This document shows, piece by piece, positions 24,270-37,083 of a stretch of 38,061 nucleotides of DNA; position 1 is the stretch's first letter; each line of letters begins with the position of its first letter. This DNA comes from a bacterium (GTDB lineage: Bacteria > Vulcanimicrobiota > Vulcanimicrobiia > Vulcanimicrobiales > Vulcanimicrobiaceae): the NCBI GenBank assembly GCA_028869385.1, contig JAGWSR010000018.1, forward strand, positions 1 to 38,061, written 5' to 3'. Made by a program: the position numbers and the translations under genes. Under the pieces are notes generated by a model. The model did no database searches. It was not told where the DNA came from and saw only the letters and a program-made list of their open reading frames with translations.

Positions 24270-25010
24270 TCAGGCGAGGGCCTCCATCGCGGCATCGCTC
24301 ACGTCGAGATTGCTGAAGACGCGCGCGGCATCTTCGTGATCTTCGAGCGCTTCGAGAAAGGCGAGCACGTCGCGCAGTTGCGCGCCCTCGGGCGCGACCT
24401 TCTGCTTGGCGCGAACGCCGAGATATGCATCTTTCACGACGAGCCCGGCGGAGCGCAGCGCATCACGCGCAGCGGCAAGCTGCGTTGGTTCCGTATACAC
24501 GAACGAGACCGGTTCCTCGAACTCGAGATCCACCACCCCGTCCACGAGCGCCGCTTCGGTGAGCGCATCCTCGTCGCGGCCGCCCGGATCGATCTCGACG
24601 ATGCCGACCGGATCGAACATCCACGCAACCGAGCCGCTCTCGCCGAGGGTGCCGCCGTGCTTCGAAAAGAGAAAGCGGAACTCACCCGCGGTGCGGTTGC
24701 GATTGTCGGTCTGCGAATCGACGATGACGGCGATGCCGTGCGGGCCGTAGCCCTCGTAGCGCAGCTCCTCGATCTCTTTCTCGCCGCCCGCGCCCGACCC
24801 GCGCCCGATCGCGCGTTTGATATTGTCCTGGGGCATATTGTGCTCGCGCGCCTTCTCGACCGCGAGCTTCAGGCGGTGATTGGACTCCGGATCGGGCGAA
24901 CCACCCTTCGCCGCGAGCGTGATCTCTTTGCTCAGCTTGGTGAAGAGCGCGCCGCGCTGCGCGTCGGACTTGCCCTTATCGAGCTTGATGTTTTGCCACT
25001 TACGACCCAT
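24270..25010 (-). CDS. yebC: YebC/PmpR family regulatory protein
   Basis: A full-length 246-residue YebC. It begins GRKWQNIKLDKGKSDAQRG, close to the classical AGHSKWANIKHRK start, and continues with GRGSGAGGEKEIEELRYEGYGPHGIAVIV and NRNRTAGEFRFLFSKHGG, the family core. Members act as transcription regulators or, for one branch, assist translation of proline-rich stretches. Three-domain alpha/beta layout, no membrane segments. It lies between the large glycosyltransferase gene and the PASTA gene and probably belongs to the same transcript. Confidence 0.95.
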   Translation of the reverse strand: MGRKWQNIKLDKGKSDAQRGALFTKLSKEITLAAKGGSPDPESNHRLKLAVEKAREHNMPQDNIKRAIGRGSGAGGEKEIEELRYEGYGPHGIAVIVDSQTDNRNRTAGEFRFLFSKHGGTLGESGSVAWMFDPVGIVEIDPGGRDEDALTEAALVDGVVDLEFEEPVSFVYTEPTQLAAARDALRSAGLVVKDAYLGVRAKQKVAPEGAQLRDVLAFLEALEDHEDAARVFSNLDVSDAAMEALA

Positions 25011-25043: not shown

Positions 25044-28000
25044 CTATCCGGGCCCGACGATCCACTTCTCGATCCACATCCGGCTGTGCCACGCATTCCA
25101 CGTGATCGGCTGCGCCGAGAGGATGGGGTAGAAAAAGACGAAGCAGAGCCCGATCGCGAGCACGACCCCGCCGACCGCGGCGATGCCGACCCAGCGCCCG
25201 TTCGGGCCGCGGCTCTTCGCCCACTCCCAGATGCGCTGCAGCACGATCGCGTTGCAGAGACAGATCAGCGGGATGTCCACGTAAAAGTGGTAGGCGAAGG
25301 TGATGCGCGGCGACTTCATCCACGGCAGCCACTGCAAGAGGTAGGTGAGTACGATCAGCGCGTAGGCTTTGCGCCGCTCCCTCCATGCGAGGAAGCCGAC
25401 GATCGGGACCGCGAGCAGCCCGAACCACATGTTGAACGGATTCGGCATCGAGGTGATCTCCTCGACGCAACAGCCGTTATTATCGCTCTTGTTCGTGCGG
25501 CCGTCTTGGTAGTAGTACGCGATCGGCACGTAGTCGAGCGGCCACTCCCACCACTGCGAGGAGTACGGATGCGTGGCTTTGAGCGTGTCGTGATACTCGA
25601 ACATCGAGTACTGGCGATAGACCACGTCGTTGAAGTTGTGGATCTCGGCCGGATCGGGCGAGTGACGCACGAGATCCGGCACCCACACGAGCCCGTACAC
25701 CGTCGCCGCGATGAAGACGATCGTCGCGAGCGCGCCGTCGAGACGGAAGCCGCGCGGATTGCCCCAGAGCATCGGGCGGCGCTCGCGTACGACGCGCTGC
25801 AGCCAGACGAAGATCAACGCCGTGAAGCTCACGCCGAAGCCCATGACGCCGTACCACTTCGAGCTCACCAAGAGTCCGAGCGCGACGGTGAAGATCACGA
25901 GCCAGAGCGTGGCCGAGGACCCGCGCTCGCGTTCGTTCTCGGTACGAATCTCGTTCTGCGCGTAGGTGGCGCTGCCCGCGGGCGTCGCGTACGTGACGCT
26001 CGCGTCGGGGCGATAGGTGATCGTTACCTCGCCGTCATTCGCCACGAGGGCGCCCGAGCGGTTGCCCGAGATATCCCCCGCACCGATCTTGGCCTTGCCG
26101 CCGTTGCCGCTCTCGATCGTTCCGCCGTCGGGCGCATGAAGCGAGGTGCCGCTCGCGGAGCGCAGCGCGTACGAGCCGTCGGGGAAGGTGAGTTCGCGCG
26201 AACCGTCGCCGAAGAGCCGCGTGAAGAGCACGTAGCGCGCGAGCAGATAGAAGCCGAGCGCCGCGTAGAGCGCGACGATGATCATCGACGCCTTGTCGAG
26301 CGGAGGCCACGCGAACTTCCACGCGCCGACGACCGCCGCGCCGAGTAGGAGCGAGACCCCGGCCGCGACGCCGAAGGCGAGCGGCGGCACGACGACGTGC
26401 GCGCGCTCCTCGACCTGCGAGGCGATAAGAAAGCGGTAGAACGCATAGACGGCCGCAAGCGAGAACACGACGACGAAACCTTCCGGCGTCGCGATTCGCG
26501 ACTGCACGAAGTGCATGCCGTCGAAGATGAGCAGCGTCGATGCGATCGCGGCGAAGAGCGTCGAGCCGGTGACGCGCTTGGCGAACGCGTAGAGCAGCAT
26601 TACGACGAGCGCGCCGAAGAGCACGTCGAGGAAGCGCCAGCCCATCGCGTTGTCGCCGTGCTGCAGGCCGCCGAAGAGCATGACGGAGAGCGTCACCAGC
26701 AGCTTCGAGAGCGGCGGATGCGTGTTCTCGTAGATGCGCATGTTCTTCAGATACTCTTCGGCCGCGCGCGCGAAGTAGATTTCGTCGAAGATCTTCGTTC
26801 CCGGCAGCCAATAGTTGACGTACGAGAGTACGAAGCTCGCGACGCCGAGCGCGCCCATCACGAGGTAGTCGAGCGGCGCGCGCAGTCGCGCGAGCCCTTC
26901 GGTCGGATCGAACCACTCCCGCGCGCGCGCCGAGAATTGCGCGAAGAAGGCCTCGGCTTCTAACGAGGCGGCGCTCGGTTTCGCATCCGGTGCGCGCTCT
27001 TCGGCATCGACGCCGAGATAGAGATAGCCGAGCACGAAGAACGTGCCGACCGCGAGGAGCGCGTAGAAGATCGTGATCGGGCCCCAGAGGTTGAGCGGAT
27101 TGGCGCCCGGCGTCTGCGACGAGACCGCGCTCAAATACTGCAGCGAGTACACGAGGTTGGCATAGAGCACGAGCGAGAGCACGAGCGCGCCCCACAGGTA
27201 GCGGCGCGCGAGCGGCACGCACGCGACCGCGAAGAGCAGCGCGTCGAACGAGTACCGCTCGTGCATGCGCGTCGCCAGGATGAAGAACGCGAGGAGCGCG
27301 AGCGTGCAGGCTTCGAGCAGCGCCGCCGCGGTGCGCGCCTGCACGTAGCGCCAGACGATGAGCGCGAGCGCCGCGATGACGAGGCCGATACCCCACACGT
27401 ACTGCGGCGCGCGCAGAAAGAGAAAGCCGGTGGTCGCATCGTCGCGCTGCCAAAACGCGCCGTGCAACGCCCACAGGTTGAAGGCGTTGACCGTGTTGTA
27501 CGGATAGACGTTCGAGCCGAAGTGGTATTGGCCGAGCAGCCAGGTCAGCGCCGCGATCGGATTGCTTGGGTGGAACGGCTCGGTCAGCAAAATCGTGAAT
27601 GCGAACGCCCCGACGATGCCGAGCAGCGTTCCCATGATGCGCGCGCGACGGCGCTGTGCATCGACGAACGCGAAGGCGAGAAAGATCGGGATCACCGCCG
27701 CCGCCTGCGGCTTGATCAAGAGCGAGTAGGCGAGCGCGATCCACGCGACCGGAATCTCCCACCCGAGCGAACCCACCGGGCGATCGTCGGAGCGCAGCAG
27801 CAGATACGCCGCGAGCAGCACGAAGAGCCCGGCGAAGGCGTCCACCTGCCCCCAGTTGGCCGAGATGTAGATCGTCGCAGGATTCAGCACGTAGAGCGCC
27901 GCCGCGCCGAAGGCAACGACGGGGCGCGCGAAGCGGCAGCCGATGCGATAGATCAGCGCGCCGATCGCGAGATCGGCGAAGATCGCGGGCAACTTCGTGA

Positions 28001-28304
28001 GCAGCATCAGGATGCCGAAGCCCGGATCGTGCGAACGCAGCGGCGCCCAGAGATGCCCGATGAGGGCGAGCACGTAGAAATATCCCGGCGGATAATCGGC
28101 GAAGCCCGTCTGGCTGTAGAAGTTCGCGAAGCCGTGGTCGAGGAGCGAGATCGCCCACGCTTCAAACGTGGCGACGTCGTTGCGGAACCCCTGATCGCCG
28201 ACGAAGAGCAGCCGAATCAAGAAGCCCACGATGAGCAAGGCAGGCATGCCCCACGGGAGCATGCGCTCCCAGACGGACGTGCGGACGTTCGTCCCCGAAT
28301 TCAC
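25044..28304 (-). CDS. giant fusion of two GT-C glycosyltransferases (Gpi18-like + PMT/GT39-like)
   Basis: A 1086-residue polytopic membrane protein. The N-terminal half (to about residue 420) has its own first-loop acidic residues (GDQGFRNDVATFEAW), the FADYPPGYFY segment and roughly ten helices, like the mannosyltransferase/Gpi18-type GT-C family. A soluble linker rich in Ala and Glu (about 425-470) follows. The C-terminal half is a protein-O-mannosyltransferase (PMT, GT39): DEIYFARAAEEYL with Asp507-Glu508, and NTHPPLSKLLV, then another set of helices. A beta-rich, non-hydrophobic insert occupies about residues 697-798. Two catalytic units in one chain could add successive sugars to a lipid or protein. 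The GTG start at 28304 follows an AGAGGA about eleven bases upstream; a longer frame reaches into the polyprenyl synthase and is spurious. Confidence 0.82.
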   Translation of the reverse strand: MNSGTNVRTSVWERMLPWGMPALLIVGFLIRLLFVGDQGFRNDVATFEAWAISLLDHGFANFYSQTGFADYPPGYFYVLALIGHLWAPLRSHDPGFGILMLLTKLPAIFADLAIGALIYRIGCRFARPVVAFGAAALYVLNPATIYISANWGQVDAFAGLFVLLAAYLLLRSDDRPVGSLGWEIPVAWIALAYSLLIKPQAAAVIPIFLAFAFVDAQRRRARIMGTLLGIVGAFAFTILLTEPFHPSNPIAALTWLLGQYHFGSNVYPYNTVNAFNLWALHGAFWQRDDATTGFLFLRAPQYVWGIGLVIAALALIVWRYVQARTAAALLEACTLALLAFFILATRMHERYSFDALLFAVACVPLARRYLWGALVLSLVLYANLVYSLQYLSAVSSQTPGANPLNLWGPITIFYALLAVGTFFVLGYLYLGVDAEERAPDAKPSAASLEAEAFFAQFSARAREWFDPTEGLARLRAPLDYLVMGALGVASFVLSYVNYWLPGTKIFDEIYFARAAEEYLKNMRIYENTHPPLSKLLVTLSVMLFGGLQHGDNAMGWRFLDVLFGALVVMLLYAFAKRVTGSTLFAAIASTLLIFDGMHFVQSRIATPEGFVVVFSLAAVYAFYRFLIASQVEERAHVVVPPLAFGVAAGVSLLLGAAVVGAWKFAWPPLDKASMIIVALYAALGFYLLARYVLFTRLFGDGSRELTFPDGSYALRSASGTSLHAPDGGTIESGNGGKAKIGAGDISGNRSGALVANDGEVTITYRPDASVTYATPAGSATYAQNEIRTENERERGSSATLWLVIFTVALGLLVSSKWYGVMGFGVSFTALIFVWLQRVVRERRPMLWGNPRGFRLDGALATIVFIAATVYGLVWVPDLVRHSPDPAEIHNFNDVVYRQYSMFEYHDTLKATHPYSSQWWEWPLDYVPIAYYYQDGRTNKSDNNGCCVEEITSMPNPFNMWFGLLAVPIVGFLAWRERRKAYALIVLTYLLQWLPWMKSPRITFAYHFYVDIPLICLCNAIVLQRIWEWAKSRGPNGRWVGIAAVGGVVLAIGLCFVFFYPILSAQPITWNAWHSRMWIEKWIVGPG

Positions 28305-28321: not shown

Positions 28322-29221
28322 TTAAACGAGGGTGCCGAGCAGGTACTCGCGCAGCGCCGCGCTCGGGTGGCGCTCCACGACTGCCATAGGTTCTGCGATG
28401 GCACGCGCCGCCGCCTGTTGCGCCCCGAGCGAGACCAGGGCCTCCACGACCCGCTCCACCTCGGTCGGCTCGAGGGCCCGCCCCGCGGCGTACGCCGTGG
28501 CGACCACGCTGCGGGCCGGCGAGGCCGGCTGCGCGAGCGCCCAGACGACGGGAAAGGTCCACTTGCGCCGGGCGAGATCGTTGCCGCTCACCTTGCCCGT
28601 CGCATCGCTCGAGGCCCAGATGCCGAGCACGTCGTCGCGAATTTGAAAGGCCCGGCCATAGGCGCGCCCGAGCTCGGCGTAGCCCTCGACGGCCCGATCG
28701 GTGGCCCCGGCCGCCTGCGCGCCGAGCACGAACGAGGCCTCGAAGAGCGCCCCGGTCTTGCACGCGATCATGTGGTGGTACGCATCGAGATCCACGTGCG
28801 TCGCGCCCTCGAACTGCAGGTCGAGCGCTTGACCCTCGCACATCACGCGATGCGCCTCATGGAGCGTACGCACCATCTCCAGCACGCGCGCGCCTTCCAG
28901 GTGCTCGCTCGCGCGCGCGAGCGTGAGGAAGCTGATCGCGCACATCGCATCGCCCGCGTTGATCGCCTGCGCGACGCCGTACACGTTCCAGAGCGTCCGC
29001 CGACCGTGACGCAACTCGTCGCGATCCTCGATGTCGTCGTGCACGAGCGAGTAGTTATGCAGAATCTCCACCGCCGCGGCGGCGTCGAGCACGCGTTCGA
29101 GCGGTGCGGCCTCGGCGAGCGCGGTGCGCATCGCGATCTGCGGGCGCAGGCGCTTGCCGCGGCGGATCGTCGCGCGATCCTCGCCGTAGCCGAAATGGTA
29201 GAGCAGCATATCGGCGACCAA
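28322..29221 (-). CDS. polyprenyl (FPP/GGPP-type) diphosphate synthase
   Basis: A trans-isoprenyl diphosphate synthase. RRGKRLRP binds diphosphate, LVHDDIED holds the first aspartate-rich motif, and QIRDDVLGIW the second, in the DDxxG form seen in some GGPP/squalene-linked synthases. KTGALFEAS and ARRKWTFPVVWAL are further family blocks. It makes the C15-C20 precursor needed by the carotenoid genes. From the TTG at 29221, GKRLRP falls at residue 22, whereas the family usually has about 45 before it. In-frame sequence with family-like composition (IERFEAHLEDRIRGYRGSS) continues upstream to position 29278 or further but offers no ATG, GTG or TTG. The true start may be a rare ATT or ATC. Confidence 0.9.
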   Translation of the reverse strand: MVADMLLYHFGYGEDRATIRRGKRLRPQIAMRTALAEAAPLERVLDAAAAVEILHNYSLVHDDIEDRDELRHGRRTLWNVYGVAQAINAGDAMCAISFLTLARASEHLEGARVLEMVRTLHEAHRVMCEGQALDLQFEGATHVDLDAYHHMIACKTGALFEASFVLGAQAAGATDRAVEGYAELGRAYGRAFQIRDDVLGIWASSDATGKVSGNDLARRKWTFPVVWALAQPASPARSVVATAYAAGRALEPTEVERVVEALVSLGAQQAAARAIAEPMAVVERHPSAALREYLLGTLV

Positions 29222-29273
29222 CGACGATCCCCGATACCCTCGGATGCGGTCTTCTAGGTGCGCTTCGAAGCGC

Positions 29274-29885
29274 TCAATCGGCTCGACGATCGTTCTCCTT
29301 CTGCAGCGCGTCGATCGCGTTCATCACCAACTCCGTATAGCTCGCCAACGACTCCTTGGTTGCCTTTCCACCACCCGGCGGGGGCGGGATCGATGGGCCG
29401 AACGCGAGCCGAACGCGCGTGCGAAAGGGCTTCGCATCGCGTGTCCCGGCAATCGCGCACGGCACGACCGGTACCTGTGCGGCATTCGCGAGCCACGCAA
29501 CGCCCAACCGCGCATCCTGCTCGCCGTCGAGATTCCGGCGTCCCTCCGGAAAGAGCCCGACGCTCTGCCCGGCACGCAAGAGCTTCAACGATGCCATCAA
29601 CGGACCGCGCGCGCTGCCTTCGCGGTTCACGGGAAACGCATTGACGACCGGCAGCAACCAGCGGAGGATCGGCTTCGAGAAGAGTTCTTGCTTCGCCATG
29701 AAGTGCACGTCGCGACCGTTCGCAAACGCGCCGAATACCGGCGGATCGAGATACGACACGTGATTGCCCGCTAGGATGAACGCTCCCGTGCGCGGCACGT
29801 TCTCGCGACCGACGGCGCGTGCGCGGTAGAACACGCGGCCTCCGAGGCGCACCCAGAACGCGAAGAAGCGAAAGCCGAGCGTCAC
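29274..29885 (-). CDS. PlsC-like 1-acylglycerol-phosphate acyltransferase 1
   Basis: A 203-residue membrane-associated acyltransferase of the LPLAT/PlsC family. The catalytic HxxxxD motif is NHVSYLDPP (His42, Asp47), VNREGSARG follows, and FPEGRRNLDG is the acceptor-phosphate motif. An N-terminal hydrophobic segment (FRFFAFWVRLG) anchors it. Such enzymes acylate lysophosphatidate or related lipids. The GTG start overlaps the second acyltransferase stop by 4 bases. The pairing with cmk follows a pattern seen in Firmicutes. An additional role in acylating a glycosyl-carotenoid cannot be ruled out. Confidence 0.92.
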   Translation of the reverse strand: MTLGFRFFAFWVRLGGRVFYRARAVGRENVPRTGAFILAGNHVSYLDPPVFGAFANGRDVHFMAKQELFSKPILRWLLPVVNAFPVNREGSARGPLMASLKLLRAGQSVGLFPEGRRNLDGEQDARLGVAWLANAAQVPVVPCAIAGTRDAKPFRTRVRLAFGPSIPPPPGGGKATKESLASYTELVMNAIDALQKENDRRAD

Positions 29886-30505
29886 GGCGTTTCGCGCAGG
29901 GCTGCGATCGCGGCCATGATCTCATCGGTGAATCGCAGCAGGTCCTCGCGCGTCGCCTTGCGATCGGTCGGGAGCGCGAGCGGCTTGCCGTAGATCACGC
30001 GCACGGGCGGGCGCGGACGCTCCTTGGCGCGATCGCTGTTGATGATCGCGGCGGGAACCACCGGCGCGCCGCTCATCGCCGCGAGCATCGCCACGCCCAT
30101 CTGCGCCTGCTTATCGCCTTCGACGTTGCGCCCGCCCTCGGGAAAGATGCCGACGCAGCCGCCGCGCTTCAGGATTTCGAGTGCATGCTTGATTGCGGCG
30201 CGCGCGCTGCCCTCGCGATCGACCGGAAACGCCCCCATCGTCGCGATCATCGGCCCGAGGATGCGAATCTCGAAGAGTTCCTTTTTGGCCATGTACGCGA
30301 TGCGACGCGGAAAGTACGCACCGACGAGCGGCGGATCGAGCCAAGAGATATGATTGGCCGCAAGGATGACCGGGCCGCTGCGCGGGGCGTTCTCGATGCC
30401 GTAGGTGCGCAGACGGTAATCTTTCCATGCGACGAAGCGCGTGACGAGCCGCCAAAAATAGAACGACGGAATGACGATGAAATCGGGAAAGGTGATGAAC
30501 TTCAT
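29882..30505 (-). CDS. PlsC-like 1-acylglycerol-phosphate acyltransferase 2
   Basis: A 207-residue paralogue of the next acyltransferase downstream. NHISWLDPPLVG carries the HxxxxD motif (His52, Asp57), VDREGSARAAIKHALEIL the second block and IFPEGGRNVEG the third. An N-terminal amphipathic or membrane segment (FPDFIVIPSFYFWRLV) is present. The two are clearly related but their C-termini differ, so they may prefer different acceptors. Its ATG overlaps the cmk stop as ATGA. Confidence 0.92.
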   Translation of the reverse strand: MKFITFPDFIVIPSFYFWRLVTRFVAWKDYRLRTYGIENAPRSGPVILAANHISWLDPPLVGAYFPRRIAYMAKKELFEIRILGPMIATMGAFPVDREGSARAAIKHALEILKRGGCVGIFPEGGRNVEGDKQAQMGVAMLAAMSGAPVVPAAIINSDRAKERPRPPVRVIYGKPLALPTDRKATREDLLRFTDEIMAAIAALRETP

Positions 30506-31194
30506 CGGCGCGCGCCTCGCGCGATGGTCTCGATCTCGGCGACCACGGCCGCAGCGTCAACCGCGCTCGAGTCGATCACGTGCGCGTCGGGCGCGGCGAC
30601 GAGGGGCGAGACCGCGCGCTCGCGGTCGAGGCGGTCGCGTTCTTCGATCTCGCGCGCGAGTTGATGCAGACTCACGTCGATGCCGGCCGCCTGTAACTGC
30701 GCGGCGCGGCGTTCGACGCGCGCGTTCACCGAGGCGGTGAGAAAGATCTTGACCGGCGCGAACGGCAGCACGACGGTGCCGATATCGCGCCCAGCCATCA
30801 CCACCGGACCGTCTTGCGCGATGCGGCGCTGACTCTCGACCATCGCCTCGCGCACCCGCGGATGCGCGGCGATGGTGGAGACGATCGCGGTGACTTGCTT
30901 CGAGTGCAGGGTCGCTTCATCGAGTTCGCGCCCATCGGCGGCGATGCGAAAGCCGAGCGGTGCCGCGTCATCGAGCGCGATCGCCACGTGCGCGTGCTCC
31001 CAGAGGCGCACGAGCGCGTCTTCGTTGTCGGCGTCGGTGCCCGACTGCAGCGCGAGGTGCGCGAGCGTGCGATACATCGCCCCCGTGTCGAGATAGAGAA
31101 TCTTCAATCGCTGCGCGAGCAGATGCGCGACGGTCGTCTTGCCCGAAGCGGCCGGACCGTCGATGGCGATCTGCAAGTGGGTTGGAACGCTCAT
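30502..31194 (-). CDS. cmk: cytidylate kinase
   Basis: A 230-residue nucleotide kinase that phosphorylates CMP and dCMP. The P-loop is DGPAASGKTT, followed by YLDTGAMYRTLA, the CMP-binding segment ending in VVMAGRDIGTVVLP, the lid with EIEERDRLDRERAVSPL, and the C-terminal VIDSSAVD block. Its ATG overlaps the stop of the glycosyltransferase gene by 4 bases. In Firmicutes cmk is also followed by a plsC-type gene. The presence of an essential gene between carotenoid-type and lipid genes ties them to constitutive expression. Confidence 0.96.
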   Translation of the reverse strand: MSVPTHLQIAIDGPAASGKTTVAHLLAQRLKILYLDTGAMYRTLAHLALQSGTDADNEDALVRLWEHAHVAIALDDAAPLGFRIAADGRELDEATLHSKQVTAIVSTIAAHPRVREAMVESQRRIAQDGPVVMAGRDIGTVVLPFAPVKIFLTASVNARVERRAAQLQAAGIDVSLHQLAREIEERDRLDRERAVSPLVAAPDAHVIDSSAVDAAAVVAEIETIARGARR

Positions 31195-32237
31195 GACCGC
31201 TCGCCCGTTTCGCCGAGCGCGAGCGATCTACCCCGCCATCCAATCCGCCCTCGCGCGCCCTCCCAAGCGGCGAGCAGCGCCGCACCCGCGGCCGCGAGCG
31301 CGCCGAGCGGCGCGAGCACGACCGAGAGCGACGTTTCCCGCAGGCGCCGCGCCGTGATGATGCGCGCGGCCCAGAGCGGGAGGGGCGCGCATGCGAGCAG
31401 CAGTTGCCAGATCGCGAAAAGCACGCAGCCGAGCGCGCCCGTGCCGTAGTAGAGCGAGCGCCCGAGGCCGCGCGCGTTCTGCGCGAGCGTCTCGTACCCG
31501 CAAACCGTCGCGATCTCGGCACCCGAGGCGAGCGCGACGCGATGCCCAGCCGCCTTGAGCGCACGCGCGAGCGCCACATCTTCGACCACCGCATCGAGCG
31601 CGGCGTGGCCGCCGCACGCCGCGTATGCATCGGCGCGCACGAGAAAGCACTGCCCGTTGCCCGCGGCAAAGCGCGGATCGCTGCCGCGCGCAAGCCGCAT
31701 CGGCAGCGCCTGCAGCAGAAAGAGCGTGACGGCGGGCGCGAGCAAGGCCGACGCGAGCGACTGCGGCGCGACGCGCAGCCACGCCGTCGCCGCCGCTGCC
31801 TGCATCTGCCGCGCGTAGGCGACGAGCGTTGCCGCGCACGCCGGCGCGATGCGCACGTCCGCGTCGAGAAAGAGCAGCCACGGCGTACCCGGCGGATGCG
31901 CCTCGACGGCGCGGGCGAGCATCGCCGACTTGCCGCCGCGCGCGCCGCCCGTCACCACGTGCACGCGCGCGTCGCGTCGCGCGTAAGCGTCGAGAATCGC
32001 GGGCGTGGCGTCGCTCGACCCGTCGTCTCCGACGACGACCGACGCGACATCATCCGACGCGAGCACGGCGTCGAGAAACGCGGCCGCGTTCTCGCCTTCA
32101 TCGCGCATCGCGACGTACACGTCCACGCGCTCGTGCGCATCGCGCGTCGGCTTTAGGCGTGGAAAGCACGCGAGATTGGCGACCTCCATCGCGAGGCCCC
32201 CGAGCGCGACGCCGTTAGCGAGGAGCCAGAGCCACAC
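31191..32237 (-). CDS. GT2 family glycosyltransferase, CrtQ-like
   Basis: A 348-residue membrane-associated family 2 glycosyltransferase. GDDGSSDAT is the nucleotide-sugar motif, FLDADVRI the DxD motif, GNGQCFLVRADAYAACGG the acceptor segment and VEDVALARAL the catalytic ED motif. N-terminal (WLWLLANGVALGGLAMEVAN) and C-terminal hydrophobic helices anchor it. The arrangement resembles CrtQ, which glycosylates a carotenoid acid in staphyloxanthin synthesis, and the gene sits beside a desaturase-like oxidase and an acyltransferase. The similarity is to the wider family, so carotenoid specificity is inferred from context. It overlaps the acyltransferase gene by 23 bases. Confidence 0.85.
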   Translation of the reverse strand: MWLWLLANGVALGGLAMEVANLACFPRLKPTRDAHERVDVYVAMRDEGENAAAFLDAVLASDDVASVVVGDDGSSDATPAILDAYARRDARVHVVTGGARGGKSAMLARAVEAHPPGTPWLLFLDADVRIAPACAATLVAYARQMQAAAATAWLRVAPQSLASALLAPAVTLFLLQALPMRLARGSDPRFAAGNGQCFLVRADAYAACGGHAALDAVVEDVALARALKAAGHRVALASGAEIATVCGYETLAQNARGLGRSLYYGTGALGCVLFAIWQLLLACAPLPLWAARIITARRLRETSLSVVLAPLGALAAAGAALLAAWEGARGRIGWRGRSLALGETGERS

Positions 32238-32913
32238 GATCGTCCACTCCGGCGCGTCCGCTCACCGCGATGCGAAAGCGTTGCTCGATCTGTCCGTCGG
32301 CGAGCAGACGATCGATCTCGGCAAGCATCGCGGCGACGCACGCTTGCGTGCGCTCGCGCGCGCCGCGCAGCGCGACGATCGGCTCACCGTAGCGCACGAA
32401 GATCTCGGGGCGCTGGCGATCGCGAAAGACGAAACGCATCGCCGCCGGCACGATCGGTACGCCCGCCTCGCGCGCGACGTGCTCGAACCCGCTCGTGAAC
32501 GCGAGCGGCGCACTCGGCGCGTGCAGCACGCCGTCGGGAAAGATCCACACCGCGGCCCCGGCACGCGCCTCGTCGGCCGCATAGCGCACCGCATCGCGCG
32601 CGGCGCGCACCGAACGCGCATCCACCGAGAACGCCCCGCCGAAGCGAAAGAATGGAAAGCGACGCAGTTCGGCGTCGCTCATCATCACGGCGAAGGGCCG
32701 CTCGCGCTCGCGTTCGTGATGGAGCAGATAGGGGATCAACCCGTCCCACCACGAGTGGTGATTGGCGACCGCCACGTAGCCGCCGTGCGCGGGTAACGAC
32801 TCGACACCCGCGACCCAAACGCGCGCGAAGTTGCCGCGCACGAGTCGTCGCGTGTACCACACGAAGAACGAGTCGAACCCGGCGACGCGCCGCGCGCGCT
32901 GCCACCCGCTCAC
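32215..32913 (-). CDS. PlsC-like acyltransferase in the carotenoid cluster
   Basis: A 232-residue LPLAT-family acyltransferase. NHHSWWDGLIPYLL gives the HxxxxD motif (His52, Asp57), GGAFSVDARSVRAARDAV the second block, and WIFPDGVLHAP a variant of FPEG with Asp for Glu. The start is GTG 32913, which overlaps the desaturase-like stop as GTGA. Context suggests esterification of a sugar on a glycosyl-carotenoid, the step done by CrtO in staphyloxanthin synthesis, although CrtO of Staphylococcus belongs to a different, smaller family. A phospholipid role is the main alternative. Confidence 0.85.
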   Translation of the reverse strand: MSGWQRARRVAGFDSFFVWYTRRLVRGNFARVWVAGVESLPAHGGYVAVANHHSWWDGLIPYLLHHERERERPFAVMMSDAELRRFPFFRFGGAFSVDARSVRAARDAVRYAADEARAGAAVWIFPDGVLHAPSAPLAFTSGFEHVAREAGVPIVPAAMRFVFRDRQRPEIFVRYGEPIVALRGARERTQACVAAMLAEIDRLLADGQIEQRFRIAVSGRAGVDDRVALAPR

Positions 32914-34337
32914 GCGAGCAAAGCGTCGGCCGCGAGACGTCCCGAGATGACGACCATCGGCACGCCCGATCCCGGGCGCGTGCCGCTCCCCGCGAAGACG
33001 ACGTTGCGCAGGCGCGGATGGCGGATGGCCGGGCGGAACGGACCCATCTGATCGAGCGTGTGATCGGGGCCGAAGGCTGCACCGTGCATGAGGCCGAGTT
33101 CGCGCTCGAACTCCTCGGGTCCGCGTCGCCGCTCGACGACGATCCGACCGCGCAACGGTCCCGCCTGCGCTTCGAGCGCGTCGAGCACGCGCTCGCGCAT
33201 GGCGTCGAGATCGAGCGACGGCGCGAGCGCGCGGTTCGGCACCGGTGCGAGCACGAGCAGCGCGCTTCCGCCGGGCGGTGCGACGCTCGGATCGGTGGCG
33301 GCGGGATTGCAGACGTAGAGCATCGTTTCGTCGGGCACGCGCCCCGCGTCGAGGTGCGCGTACGCCCCCCACGGATCGCGCGGGAGCATGACCGTGTGGT
33401 GATCGAGCGCGACCGGCGCATCGAGGCCGAAGTACCACACGCACGCGGTGTGTCCGTAGCGCGGCGAACGTCCGCGCGGCGCCTCGTCGCCGAACAACCC
33501 GAGGGACGGTTCACGATCGGCGGCGACGACGAGCGCGTCGGCATCGTAGCTCGTCGCGCCGGCATGGACGCGCACGCCGCCGTCGGCGCGCATCTCCACG
33601 CGCTCGGCGCGCGTGTCGAACGCAAACTCCGCTCCGCGTCGCTGCGCCTCGCGCACGAATGCATCCACCACGGCACCCGTGCCGCCGCGCGCGTACCACA
33701 CGCCGCCCACCATCTCTTCTACCGGCAAGAGTGCGTACATCGCGGGCGAGCGCAACGGCGACGTGCCGAGGTAGAGCGGTTGGAACGTGAGCGCCTGCAC
33801 CACGCGCGGATCGTGAAAGTATCGCTCGGTGAAGGCGCGCAGCGAGCCCGCGATCCACGGGCGAATGCGCCCCGGCGAGAGGATCGTACGCGCAAACGAC
33901 GCGAGCGTGTGATCGCGTTCGAGGATGCGCGAACGCGCGTCCACGTGCGCGCCGTGCACGTCGGCCAGATAGCGTAGCGCGCGGCTCGCGCGCCCGGGTT
34001 CGAAACGCGCGAACTCCTGGAGCACGAGCGCGATATCGGACTGCATCGCGAACGACGCGCCGTCGGCGAAACGCACGCGATAGCCCGGCTCGAGGCGCTG
34101 CAGAGCGAGCGCGTCGAAGGCCTCATCGCCGAGCGCGGAGCGCAGCAGATCGGTCATCACGAGCAGCGTGGGGCCGAGATCGAAACGATACCCGGCGGCG
34201 CTCCATGACTGCGCGCGCCCGCCGGGGCGATCGGCGGCTTCGAGCACGCGCACGGCGACCCCGCGCCGCTGCAGTTCGAGCGTGGCGGAGAGTCCGGCGA
34301 AACCGGAACCGATGACAATGGCGGAACGCACGCTCAT
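32910..34337 (-). CDS. CrtI/CrtP-type carotenoid desaturase or oxidase
   Basis: A 475-residue FAD enzyme of the phytoene desaturase family. The N-terminus AIVIGSGFAGLSATLELQRRG holds GxGxxG, followed by EAADRPGGRAQSW and YRFDLGPTLLVM. The C-terminus has FAGSGTRPGSGVPMVVISG, the usual CrtI ending. It is a paralogue of the other desaturase at 35611-37083. With GT2 and acyltransferase genes directly downstream in coupled order, it may do the later oxidation step (as CrtP/CrtNb does) while the other makes the chromophore; that split is inference. I use the ATG at 34337; an earlier ATG at 34379 lies inside the opposite-strand DUF2269 gene. Confidence 0.88.
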   Translation of the reverse strand: MSVRSAIVIGSGFAGLSATLELQRRGVAVRVLEAADRPGGRAQSWSAAGYRFDLGPTLLVMTDLLRSALGDEAFDALALQRLEPGYRVRFADGASFAMQSDIALVLQEFARFEPGRASRALRYLADVHGAHVDARSRILERDHTLASFARTILSPGRIRPWIAGSLRAFTERYFHDPRVVQALTFQPLYLGTSPLRSPAMYALLPVEEMVGGVWYARGGTGAVVDAFVREAQRRGAEFAFDTRAERVEMRADGGVRVHAGATSYDADALVVAADREPSLGLFGDEAPRGRSPRYGHTACVWYFGLDAPVALDHHTVMLPRDPWGAYAHLDAGRVPDETMLYVCNPAATDPSVAPPGGSALLVLAPVPNRALAPSLDLDAMRERVLDALEAQAGPLRGRIVVERRRGPEEFERELGLMHGAAFGPDHTLDQMGPFRPAIRHPRLRNVVFAGSGTRPGSGVPMVVISGRLAADALLA

Positions 34338-34355
34338 CGCTGCGAAGCTCCGCTC

Positions 34356-34802
34356 ATGCTGCTCGTGAAGACGCTGCACGTCATCTGCGCGGTGCTGTGG
34401 CTTGGAAACTTCGTCGTGACCGGCGTGTGGAGTCTGCGCGCCTTCGCGCTGCGCGATGCGGCGCTCGCGCGCTTCGCGACGCGCGAGATCCTCTTCACCG
34501 ATCTGCTCTTCACCTTCGTCGGCGGCTCCGCGGTCGTGATGAGCGGCCTCGGACTCGCCGCGCTCGAAGGTATCTCGCCGTGGGCGACCGCGTGGACGCG
34601 CGGCGCGCTGCTCACCTCGATCGCAAGCGGCATCGCGTGGATCGCGCTGCTGCTGCCGATCGAACTGCGCATGCGGCGCCTCGCCGAAGGCGGCGACGAC
34701 CTCGCGCTGCGCAAAGTGTTCGTGTGGTGGAACGTCGTTGGGTGGGCGATCACGGTCGCGCTCTTCTCCATCATCTATTTGATGGTCGCAAAGCCCGTGT
34801 AG
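34356..34802 (+). CDS. DUF2269-like integral membrane protein
   Basis: A 148-residue protein with four predicted transmembrane helices (about 4-24, 48-72, 84-104 and 124-145). The segment LHVICAVLWLGNFVVTG near the start, with a conserved His and Trp-Leu-Gly, and the later WNVVGWAITVALFSIIYLM match the DUF2269 (predicted integral membrane, YjfL/CopD-like) pattern. The function of the family is unknown. It is the only plus-strand gene in this region: its start lies 18 bp from the divergent desaturase start and its end overlaps the convergent crtB by 28 bases. Confidence 0.78.
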   Translation: MLLVKTLHVICAVLWLGNFVVTGVWSLRAFALRDAALARFATREILFTDLLFTFVGGSAVVMSGLGLAALEGISPWATAWTRGALLTSIASGIAWIALLLPIELRMRRLAEGGDDLALRKVFVWWNVVGWAITVALFSIIYLMVAKPV

Positions 34803-35614
34803 GCTTCGACCACACAGTACAGCGCTCGGCGCAGCTTCTCACCGGTCGGAACGTACGCGCGCCCCTGCGCCGTGTCGAAATCACGCGCCTCGAGCCGATC
34901 CACGATGCCGCCGTAGATGGCGCTGGTCATCAAGAGCGCAGCGCGCGAGCCGTCATTCGGCACGCGGGCGGCGAGCACGCGCCCCTCGCGGTAGTACTCG
35001 CGCGCGATACGCGCGATCTCGCGCATTACCTCGCGCTCCGCGGCGTGCGCGAGCATCTCGCTCGGAAGATAGGTGCGCCCCATCGCACGATCCTCTTCAA
35101 CGTCGCGCAGCACGTTGGTATATTGCATCGCGATGCCCAAGCGCTCGCCGCGATCGAGCGAATCGCGGTCGCTCGCGCCGAGTATCGGCATCGAGCAGCG
35201 CCCGACCGTGCCCGCGACGGCGGCGGAGTAGCGATAGAGATCGTCGAGGGTGCGAATCGGCGCGGGATCGAGATCGCTGCGGCAGCCCTCGACCAAGCGT
35301 CGCGCGTCGGCCACATCAATAGCGAAGCGTTCGAAGGCGCGCCGCACCGCCGGATACCACGGTGCGCCGCCGCTGCCCGCCGCATCGCGCACGGTGTCGA
35401 GTTCGCGCAGGATGTGTTCCAGCCCACGCTCGCGCTCCTCGCGCGTGAAGCCGGGCTCGTCGGCGAGATCGTCGGCGCTACGAAAGAGCCCGTAGAGCGC
35501 CTCGACCGCTTCGCGCTTGCGGCGCGGCAGGATGCGCGTGGAGAAAAAGAAGCTCTTCGCGTGCTCGCGCATCACGTTCGCGCACCACGCTTGCGAACGC
35601 TCGACGTCGCTCAC
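34775..35614 (-). CDS. crtB: phytoene or dehydrosqualene synthase (CrtB/CrtM type)
   Basis: A 279-residue squalene/phytoene synthase that joins two prenyl diphosphates head to head. The first aspartate motif is LFRSADDLADE and the second is NVLRDVEEDRAMGRTYLP; KSFFFSTRILPRRKREAV near the start is the substrate-binding block. Length is nearer CrtM (C30, from FPP) than many CrtB enzymes (C40, from GGPP), but chain length cannot be decided by eye. The GTG start at 35614 overlaps the desaturase stop as GTGA. The frame runs on far upstream, which is an artefact. Confidence 0.92.
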   Translation of the reverse strand: MSDVERSQAWCANVMREHAKSFFFSTRILPRRKREAVEALYGLFRSADDLADEPGFTREERERGLEHILRELDTVRDAAGSGGAPWYPAVRRAFERFAIDVADARRLVEGCRSDLDPAPIRTLDDLYRYSAAVAGTVGRCSMPILGASDRDSLDRGERLGIAMQYTNVLRDVEEDRAMGRTYLPSEMLAHAAEREVMREIARIAREYYREGRVLAARVPNDGSRAALLMTSAIYGGIVDRLEARDFDTAQGRAYVPTGEKLRRALYCVVEAYTGFATIK

Positions 35615-37083
35615 GCGGGCATCTCCTCGCAGATGCGCTCGACGGTCTGCATGGCGCTCATCGTGACGAGCGGCACGCCCGTTGCCGGGCGCGTGGAGGC
35701 ACCGGCAAAGTAGCAGTTCTCGATCGTCGCGTGACGGTTGTCGGGGCGCATCGGGCCGATCTGCAGCACGTCGTGCGAGAGGCCGAAGGCCGCGCCGATG
35801 TTGAGATTGAGCTCGTCGTGAAAGTCGAGCGGCGTGCGCGTCTTGTAAAAGCGAATGCGCGCGCGCAGACCAGGCAGACGGCGCGCCTCGATCATACCGA
35901 GGATCCGTTCGGCGAGTTCGGTGGTCTGCGTGGCCCAGTCGGTGATGCCGCTCAAGTTGGGCGCGGGCACGAGCACGTAGAGCGACTCTCCGCCCGGCGG
36001 CGCGATCGTGGGATCGGTGCCGCTCGGCGCGCAGAGGTAGATCGCCGGATCGTCGGGGATCGCGCCGCGATCGAAGATGTCGTTGCACGTGGCGCGCAGG
36101 TCGGCCGGCATTAGGAACTCGTGATGTAGCAGATCGTCGTAGCGACGGTCGAGCGCGGCGTAGATGAGCAGCGCCGAGGGCGTGTGGCGCATGCGCAGCG
36201 AGCGGTGGTTCGGTTCGCCGAGCAGCGTGCCGTACACGTAGGGGAGATCGGCATTCATTACCACGAGGTCGGCCTCGTAGCGCCGGTCGGCCGTGCGCAC
36301 CGCCGTGATGCGGTCGCCTTCGCGCTCCACGCTCGTCACCGTTTCATCATAGTGAATCGCGCCGCCGTTTGCGCGCACCGCGCGGTCGAGCGCGCGCGGG
36401 AGCGCCCCGATGCCGCCCATCGGGTAGTGGATGCCCTCGCCGAGCTCGGTGAAGAGCAGCAAGCGATAGAGCAGCGGCGAGGTGAAGGGCGACATCCCCA
36501 GATACATGGATTGAAACGAGAAGGCCCCGGCGATGCGCGGCGATTTGAACGCCTGCTGCGCGCGGCGCGCGAGCGTTTTGAACGCGCCCGTTTCGAAGAG
36601 ACCCTTGATCTTGCTCGGGGTGAGAAAGTCACCGAACGAACGGATGCGTTCGCCGACGAACTCGCGGCGCGAGATTTCGTACGCTTCGGCGGCCTCGGCA
36701 AAATACTCGAGGAAGCCGCGACTCGAGCCGGGGCTCATGCGCTCGAGCGAGGCGAGCGTCTCGGAGAGCACCGAGGAGACGAGCAGCGTGCCGCCGTCGG
36801 GATAGTGCAGCTTGTAGTTCGGACGCAGACGCACGCTCGGCACCTCGGCGTCGAAATCGCCGCCCCACGTGGCGAAGGCCGTGCGATAGACGTCGAGCAT
36901 GAAGAGCAGCGTCGGACCGAGGTCAAAGGTGTAGCCGTCCCACGTTGCCTGTGCGGCGCGCCCGCCGGGCGAGGATTGGCGCTCGAGCACGGTCACGCCG
37001 TACCCGCGATGCGCCAATTGCGCGGCGGTCACGAGACCCGCCACGCCCGCTCCAACCACGACCGCCTGTCGCTTCGCCTTCAT
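35611..37083 (-). CDS. crtI: CrtI/CrtN-type phytoene or dehydrosqualene desaturase
   Basis: A 490-residue desaturase. VVVGAGVAGLVTAAQLAHRGY holds the FAD-binding GxGxxG; SSPGGRAAQATWDGYTFDLGPTLLF follows. YPMGGIGALPRAL is in the central part, and FAGASTRPATGVPLVTMSA is the CrtI signature at the C-terminus. It should introduce the conjugated double bonds into the product of the adjacent crtB, with which it is translationally coupled. The ATG at 37083 is about 80 bp from the divergent radA, and an inverted repeat lies between them. No light- or redox-responsive regulator gene is nearby. Confidence 0.92.
   Translation of the reverse strand: MKAKRQAVVVGAGVAGLVTAAQLAHRGYGVTVLERQSSPGGRAAQATWDGYTFDLGPTLLFMLDVYRTAFATWGGDFDAEVPSVRLRPNYKLHYPDGGTLLVSSVLSETLASLERMSPGSSRGFLEYFAEAAEAYEISRREFVGERIRSFGDFLTPSKIKGLFETGAFKTLARRAQQAFKSPRIAGAFSFQSMYLGMSPFTSPLLYRLLLFTELGEGIHYPMGGIGALPRALDRAVRANGGAIHYDETVTSVEREGDRITAVRTADRRYEADLVVMNADLPYVYGTLLGEPNHRSLRMRHTPSALLIYAALDRRYDDLLHHEFLMPADLRATCNDIFDRGAIPDDPAIYLCAPSGTDPTIAPPGGESLYVLVPAPNLSGITDWATQTTELAERILGMIEARRLPGLRARIRFYKTRTPLDFHDELNLNIGAAFGLSHDVLQIGPMRPDNRHATIENCYFAGASTRPATGVPLVTMSAMQTVERICEEMPA

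Follow-up and report, generated by a model that had tools for sequence, protein, structure and literature searches.

The window analysed here, a stretch of 38,061 nucleotides, contains a minus-strand gene of 1086 codons at 25044..28304 (-). The reading frame starts with GTG at 28304, ends with a stop at 25044 and has no stop codon inside, and the region around the start is homologous in relatives. Just 5' of the GTG there is a purine-rich stretch resembling a ribosome-binding site (GAGAGGAT, 28321-28314). Read on the plus strand, the same interval contains stops and no gene. The gene just upstream, at 28322..29221 (-), encodes a polyprenyl diphosphate synthase (PF00348, 195.9 bits); its stop codon lies at 28324-28322, leaving a gap of 17 nt. 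Just downstream, at 24270..25010 (-), is a gene of the YebC/TACO1 family. An open reading frame at 29254-29925 was considered as a neighbour and is probably spurious: it is Arg-rich, without a Pfam match, and no homologue of it was seen in the related loci.

Both neighbours are conserved. The polyprenyl synthetase gene was immediately upstream in 28 of 39 loci carrying the 1086-codon gene or a relative of it, and yebC was immediately downstream in 31 of the 39. The conserved order is cytidylate kinase, acyltransferase, polyprenyl synthetase, the gene described here, YebC, a PASTA protein, ribulose-phosphate epimerase and ThiL, and is often completed by FakA and PlsX. We do not think that YebC/TACO1 is part of the function of its neighbour. 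Five copies are located outside this neighbourhood (L035, L064, L066, L067 and L071), and three genomes (G108, G089 and G038) have an additional copy in the conserved place.

The protein is a true fusion of two complete GT-C modules. The sequence-only reading had described two such glycosyltransferases in one chain of 1086 residues, and had named a frameshift joining two genes, or a single half scoring as a glycosyltransferase, as the outcomes that would speak against it. We found one open frame, and each half scored as GT-C by Pfam, profile and fold comparison. We searched 149 genomes of the phylum. The class (families f1-f3) accounts for 117 of them, and in at least 96 of these both halves shared one open reading frame, a lower bound counted by hand from the result table. 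Intact fusions were present in class genomes of one to eight contigs (G101, G105, G108 and G118), and many of the remaining class genomes had fragments only. This conservation of a single frame, together with the fusions in other phyla described below, rules out a frameshift or assembly join. Other classes of the phylum gave weak matches only, the best at 1.4e-26. The named records are metagenome-assembled genomes (MAGs) of Candidatus Eremiobacterota, placed in Vulcanimicrobiota, and the class is a group of little-studied soil bacteria.

The C-terminal half (residues 466-1086; 25047..26909 (-)) is a PMT/GT39 module. It passed the gathering scores of both PMT (PF02366, residues 486-652; 74.7 bits, cut-off 22.7) and PMT_4TMC (PF16192, residues 892-1081; 78.7 bits, cut-off 32.4), and its score against the NCBIfam PMT equivalog (NF058602) was 59.8 bits, far under the curated 800 bits. 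A C-half profile built from 40 class members matched Pmt4, Pmt1 and Pmt2, finding fungal Pmt4 at 1e-20. In a fold search with an AlphaFold model of the full protein (pLDDT 86, pTM 0.62), Pmt4 and Pmt1-Pmt2 ranked first, with ArnT far behind.

The catalytic motifs of this half align with those of characterized enzymes, as expected from its earlier description as a protein O-mannosyltransferase type with DE and HPP motifs. The profile alignment with yeast Pmt4 and Pmt1/2 pairs FDE, HPP and Rx2F, and places R-x4-E opposite the R-x4-D of yeast Pmt4. In the window these are the invariant catalytic doublet D507-E508 (26781..26786 (-); D74-E75 of the M. tuberculosis enzyme, MtPMT), H529-P-P (26712..26720 (-)), R603-x4-E608 (26481..26498 (-)) and R1000-x2-F1003 (25296..25307 (-); R441/Y444 of MtPMT, R649/F652 of ScPMT1). 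MtPMT requires D74, D176, R441 and Y444, and its D176E mutant retains little activity (PMC12331936). The corresponding residues here, all conserved in the class, are D507, E608, R1000 and F1003; thus, two of the four tested residues are kept, one is exchanged as in yeast Pmt1 (Tyr to Phe), and one is changed from Asp to Glu. From the alignment, E608 in place of D176 is the sole deviation that might reduce activity.

The N-terminal half (residues 12-438; 26991..28271 (-)) has 12 predicted transmembrane helices and was assigned from the Pfam matches of its relatives, profile comparison, hydropathy, and model and fold searches. A Pfam search with this half of the window sequence alone gave no match, and by its own sequence it falls into no single CAZy or Pfam family. 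Among 41 class members, the N half matched PMT_2 in 18 (best 2.8e-12), GT87 in 11 (best 1.3e-6), Alg6_Alg8 in 10 (best 5.3e-5) and PIG-U in one. Two distant fusions passed the 25-bit cut-off of GT87 (PF09594), with 27.5 bits (L146) and 28.8 bits (L148). The best match of an N-half profile among solved structures was PIG-M (GPI mannosyltransferase 1; E 1.3e-5), and a model of the N half alone (pLDDT 92, pTM 0.92) matched the folds of ALG6, ALG3, OST, PIG-U and ArnT.

We found the features that mark the GT-C superfamily in this half: a fold with multiple transmembrane helices, an Asp in an external loop, and relatives that use polyprenyl-phosphate sugars. The sequence-only reading had called it a Gpi18/mannosyltransferase-type GT-C enzyme. 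The general GT-C assignment held, but Gpi18 itself (PIG-V) was absent from the Pfam matches of the 41 class members, and ALG6, ALG3, PIG-M and GT87 are closer. The conserved positions are D43, the first external-loop Asp (28176..28178 (-)); the D70-Y-P-P-G74 motif (28083..28097 (-)), at a position matching the HPP of the PMT half; WGQxD in the second external loop (residues 151-155; 27840..27854 (-)), in the place of the PMT R-x4-D/E; and TRMHERY (residues 345-351; 27252..27272 (-)), in the place of the PMT Rx2F/Y. Little or no variation is seen within the class in D43, DYPPGY, WGQxD155, KP198-199, D288 and TRxHERY; D43, D70, D155, K198, D288 and RxHERY are invariant in 40 members; and D43, D70, D155 and HERY are kept through most remote relatives, including fused and split versions. 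Elsewhere in the same genome, another membrane protein (L174 1-978 (-), G000:C25), encoded next to a GT2 gene, has a SYPPLWGY stretch resembling DYPPGY and did not match the N-half profile.

Each half therefore has its own set of acidic residues, as first proposed, and the motifs of both are invariant among the 40 class members and kept in remote relatives. Mean column identity was about equal (47% vs 44%), indicating that neither half is decaying. A helix-by-helix match of the two halves, derived from the models, would pair D43 with D507, YPP with HPP, D155 with E608, K198 with K816, and HERY with Rx2F. A hydropathy-based assignment gave the N half 12 transmembrane helices and the C half 13, about 25 in total, and the positive-inside rule was used to orient them. 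The N terminus and the linker are predicted to be cytosolic and both active sites periplasmic. A count of 11 helices for the N half was rejected, since the PMT active site would then face the cytosol, whereas 12 helices agree with the positive-inside rule. The linker (residues 432-477; 26874..27011 (-)) is soluble, as had been anticipated, and cytosolic by the same rule, with low AlphaFold confidence at residues 433-451.

The PMT half contains a class-specific insert, at about residues 640-795, that the sequence-only reading did not include. Alignment, model and hydropathy delimit a pair of transmembrane helices at residues 641-698 (26211..26384 (-)) that fungal Pmt4 lacks in the alignment and that is missing in three members (L060, L061 and L062). 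It is followed by a domain at residues 699-794 (25923..26210 (-)) that is all-beta by its AlphaFold strands, is predicted to be cytosolic and resembles the CPAP G-box in fold and profile matches. All aligned class members have sequence in the place of the beta region; in the more distant members it is reduced in length and has diverged. CPAP was the best profile match of the insert (E 0.0011) and a fold match with a probability of 0.97 and an E of 0.4. Seven of 28 members matched Tcp10_C, the best of them below the cut-off, and the insert scored 17.3 bits against the CPAP G-box model (PF07202; cut-off 36). These fold, profile and Pfam signals are weak and not fully independent, and we take the likeness as a lead only. 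Like the CPAP/TCP10 G-box, the insert is predicted to be a single-sheet beta repeat with PDG-type turns. However, CPAP/TCP10 is a centriole protein of animals, and the resemblance may be convergent.

The search for the same fusion in other genomes found it class-wide and also in other phyla. Fused forms with 29-36% identity occur in Sericytochromatia (whose fusions lack the insert), a Tanganyikabacteria MAG, Chloroflexota, Nitrospirota, Bacillota, Binatota and Myxococcota, with taxon names as given in the deposited MAG labels. The two halves are adjacent separate genes in some Dehalococcoidia (L149 and L150) and Bathyarchaeota (L156), suggesting that they act in a shared pathway. Nearly all of these remote forms keep the motifs, with few changes. 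For both halves, the class fusions formed one clade. Standalone PMTs of the class, which lack the insert and include one in the window's genome (G000:C106), were nested among the fused ones, and therefore look like later derivatives; the C half can apparently act without the N half. These were quick trees with a midpoint root and weak deep branching, and one or several origins of the fusion are possible.

Several variants were observed among these genes. PMTs without the N half or the insert are encoded at L072 2-1366 (on G000:C106), at L042 7609-9465, where the gene is directly behind the fusion, and at L134, L136, L138, L140 and L142. In five remote fusions (L143, L145, L147, L148 and L157), the first PMT helix is separated from the [FW]DE motif by a soluble segment of some 130-170 residues, expected on the periplasmic side; Pfam gave no match to this segment in L143, L145, L148 and L157. 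Three others (L146, L152 and L153) have about 270 extra N-terminal residues. An upstream fusion to a DPM synthase was considered for L146 and L153 and rejected, as the extension has no Pfam match and opens with a signal-like helix, after which it is soluble. In a Methanoperedens locus (L151 3039-6197), an N half is fused with part of another protein with multiple transmembrane helices; this part is about 680 residues long and gave no Pfam match, and a PMT gene adjoins on the opposite strand.

A plausible source of donor is encoded in the same genome. A gene at G000:C131 encodes a protein of 242 residues related to dolichol-phosphate-mannose synthase (5mlz, E 8e-53), which makes polyprenyl-phosphate-mannose a plausible donor. 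Relatives of this synthase are single-copy in most class genomes and are found across the phylum, including in classes that lack the fusion, and so the synthase does not single out the fusion.

We propose that the protein is a bifunctional enzyme whose PMT half initiates O-mannosylation of proteins and whose N half lengthens the resulting glycan, and we give this proposal about an even chance of being correct. It would be an inner-membrane glycosyltransferase of about 25 transmembrane helices with two GT-C sites facing the periplasm. From its family and residues, the C-terminal PMT/GT39 half would first attach mannose, supplied as polyprenyl-phosphate-mannose, to Ser/Thr of secreted proteins. 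The N half would then lengthen this protein-linked sugar by a second one, most likely mannose supplied by a donor of the same type. In mycobacteria, the GT87 enzyme PimE extends the first mannose added by PMT, using the same donor (review, PMC12757957). Joining the sites would thus couple initiation and first extension, which are split in actinobacteria between PMT and a GT87 such as PimE. Because the fusion holds one module of each general kind, the simplest interpretation is that a single chain carries out both initiation and extension. We infer the activity, the identity of the sugars, the acceptor and the order of transfer. A fuller version, a single-chain, two-site O-mannosyltransferase encoded by a core gene of a class in which protein O-mannosylation was not known, with the G-box-like sheet organising or regulating it from the cytosol, is offered tentatively and is less likely than not.

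Known systems resemble parts of this arrangement. Like bacterial PMTs of GT39 such as that of M. tuberculosis, the fusion has PMT and PMT_4TMC domains, DE, HPP and Rx2-aromatic motifs and a predicted periplasmic site, but it has a second GT-C module in front, Glu for D176, and the inserted helix pair and beta-sheet domain. The fungal enzymes Pmt4 and Pmt1-Pmt2, its best C-half fold and profile matches with aligned catalytic motifs, have a MIR domain in the ER lumen, whereas the fusion has no MIR domain and carries a predicted cytosolic beta insert. The N half has the same proposed job as PimE, extending a first mannose with a polyprenyl-phosphate donor; PimE, however, is a separate protein, and the N half of the window falls below GT87 in its own sequence. 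ALG6 and ALG3, the best N-half folds, and PIG-M, the best profile match among solved structures, differ in being single-module ER enzymes that act on lipid-linked glycans or glycolipids.

The acceptors of the last three enzymes speak for a possible though rather unlikely alternative, in which both halves are active on different acceptors, the PMT half on proteins and the N half on a lipid-linked or envelope glycan, with the fusion serving to share polyprenyl-phosphate donors. The polyprenyl diphosphate synthase gene directly upstream is consistent with this arrangement. The adjacent separate gene pairs in other phyla argue instead for coupling in one pathway, although donor sharing is still compatible with them. 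It is improbable that the C half, while having the PMT fold, is an ArnT-like modifier of lipid or polysaccharide that makes an envelope glycan. Its low equivalog score and the exchange of the second catalytic Asp for Glu would fit such a role, but PMT_4TMC, FDE, HPP and Rx2F align with true fungal protein O-mannosyltransferases, and the fold ranking puts ArnT far behind them. Still less probable is an N half that is non-catalytic, binding polyprenyl-phosphate sugars or partners and regulating the PMT half much as PIG-U does in GPI transamidase. PIG-U is among the N-half fold matches and its Pfam model matched one class member; against this, the invariant residues of the N half are conserved as for an active site, and nearly all of its motif residues survive in remote fusions and split versions. 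An artefact of assembly or frameshift fusing two separate genes has a negligible probability, given the single frame across the class, in some cases in genomes of very few contigs, and the conserved gene neighbours.

Bacterial O-mannosylation had seemed restricted to Actinomycetota (2025 paper, PMC12331936). If the fusion both initiates and extends O-mannosylation as proposed, protein O-mannosylation would reach well beyond that phylum, as a conserved, near-core trait of the class, and initiation and extension, divided between enzymes in known bacteria, would be built into one. With two GT-C sites per chain, the fusion would be a natural system in which to ask whether a glycan is handed over directly between membrane active sites, and the split neighbouring genes of Chloroflexota and Bathyarchaeota would serve as natural controls. 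We found no published account of the fusion in the open-access literature that we searched.

Near the polyprenyl synthetase gene, the window also contains a carotenoid gene cluster (31191-37083 (-)). It encodes two CrtI-like desaturases, a squalene/phytoene synthase, a CruG-like GT2 glycosyltransferase and an acyltransferase, which suggests that glycosylated, acylated carotenoids are made. Among related loci, L038 has the cluster in common with the window, and L063 has the GT2 gene.
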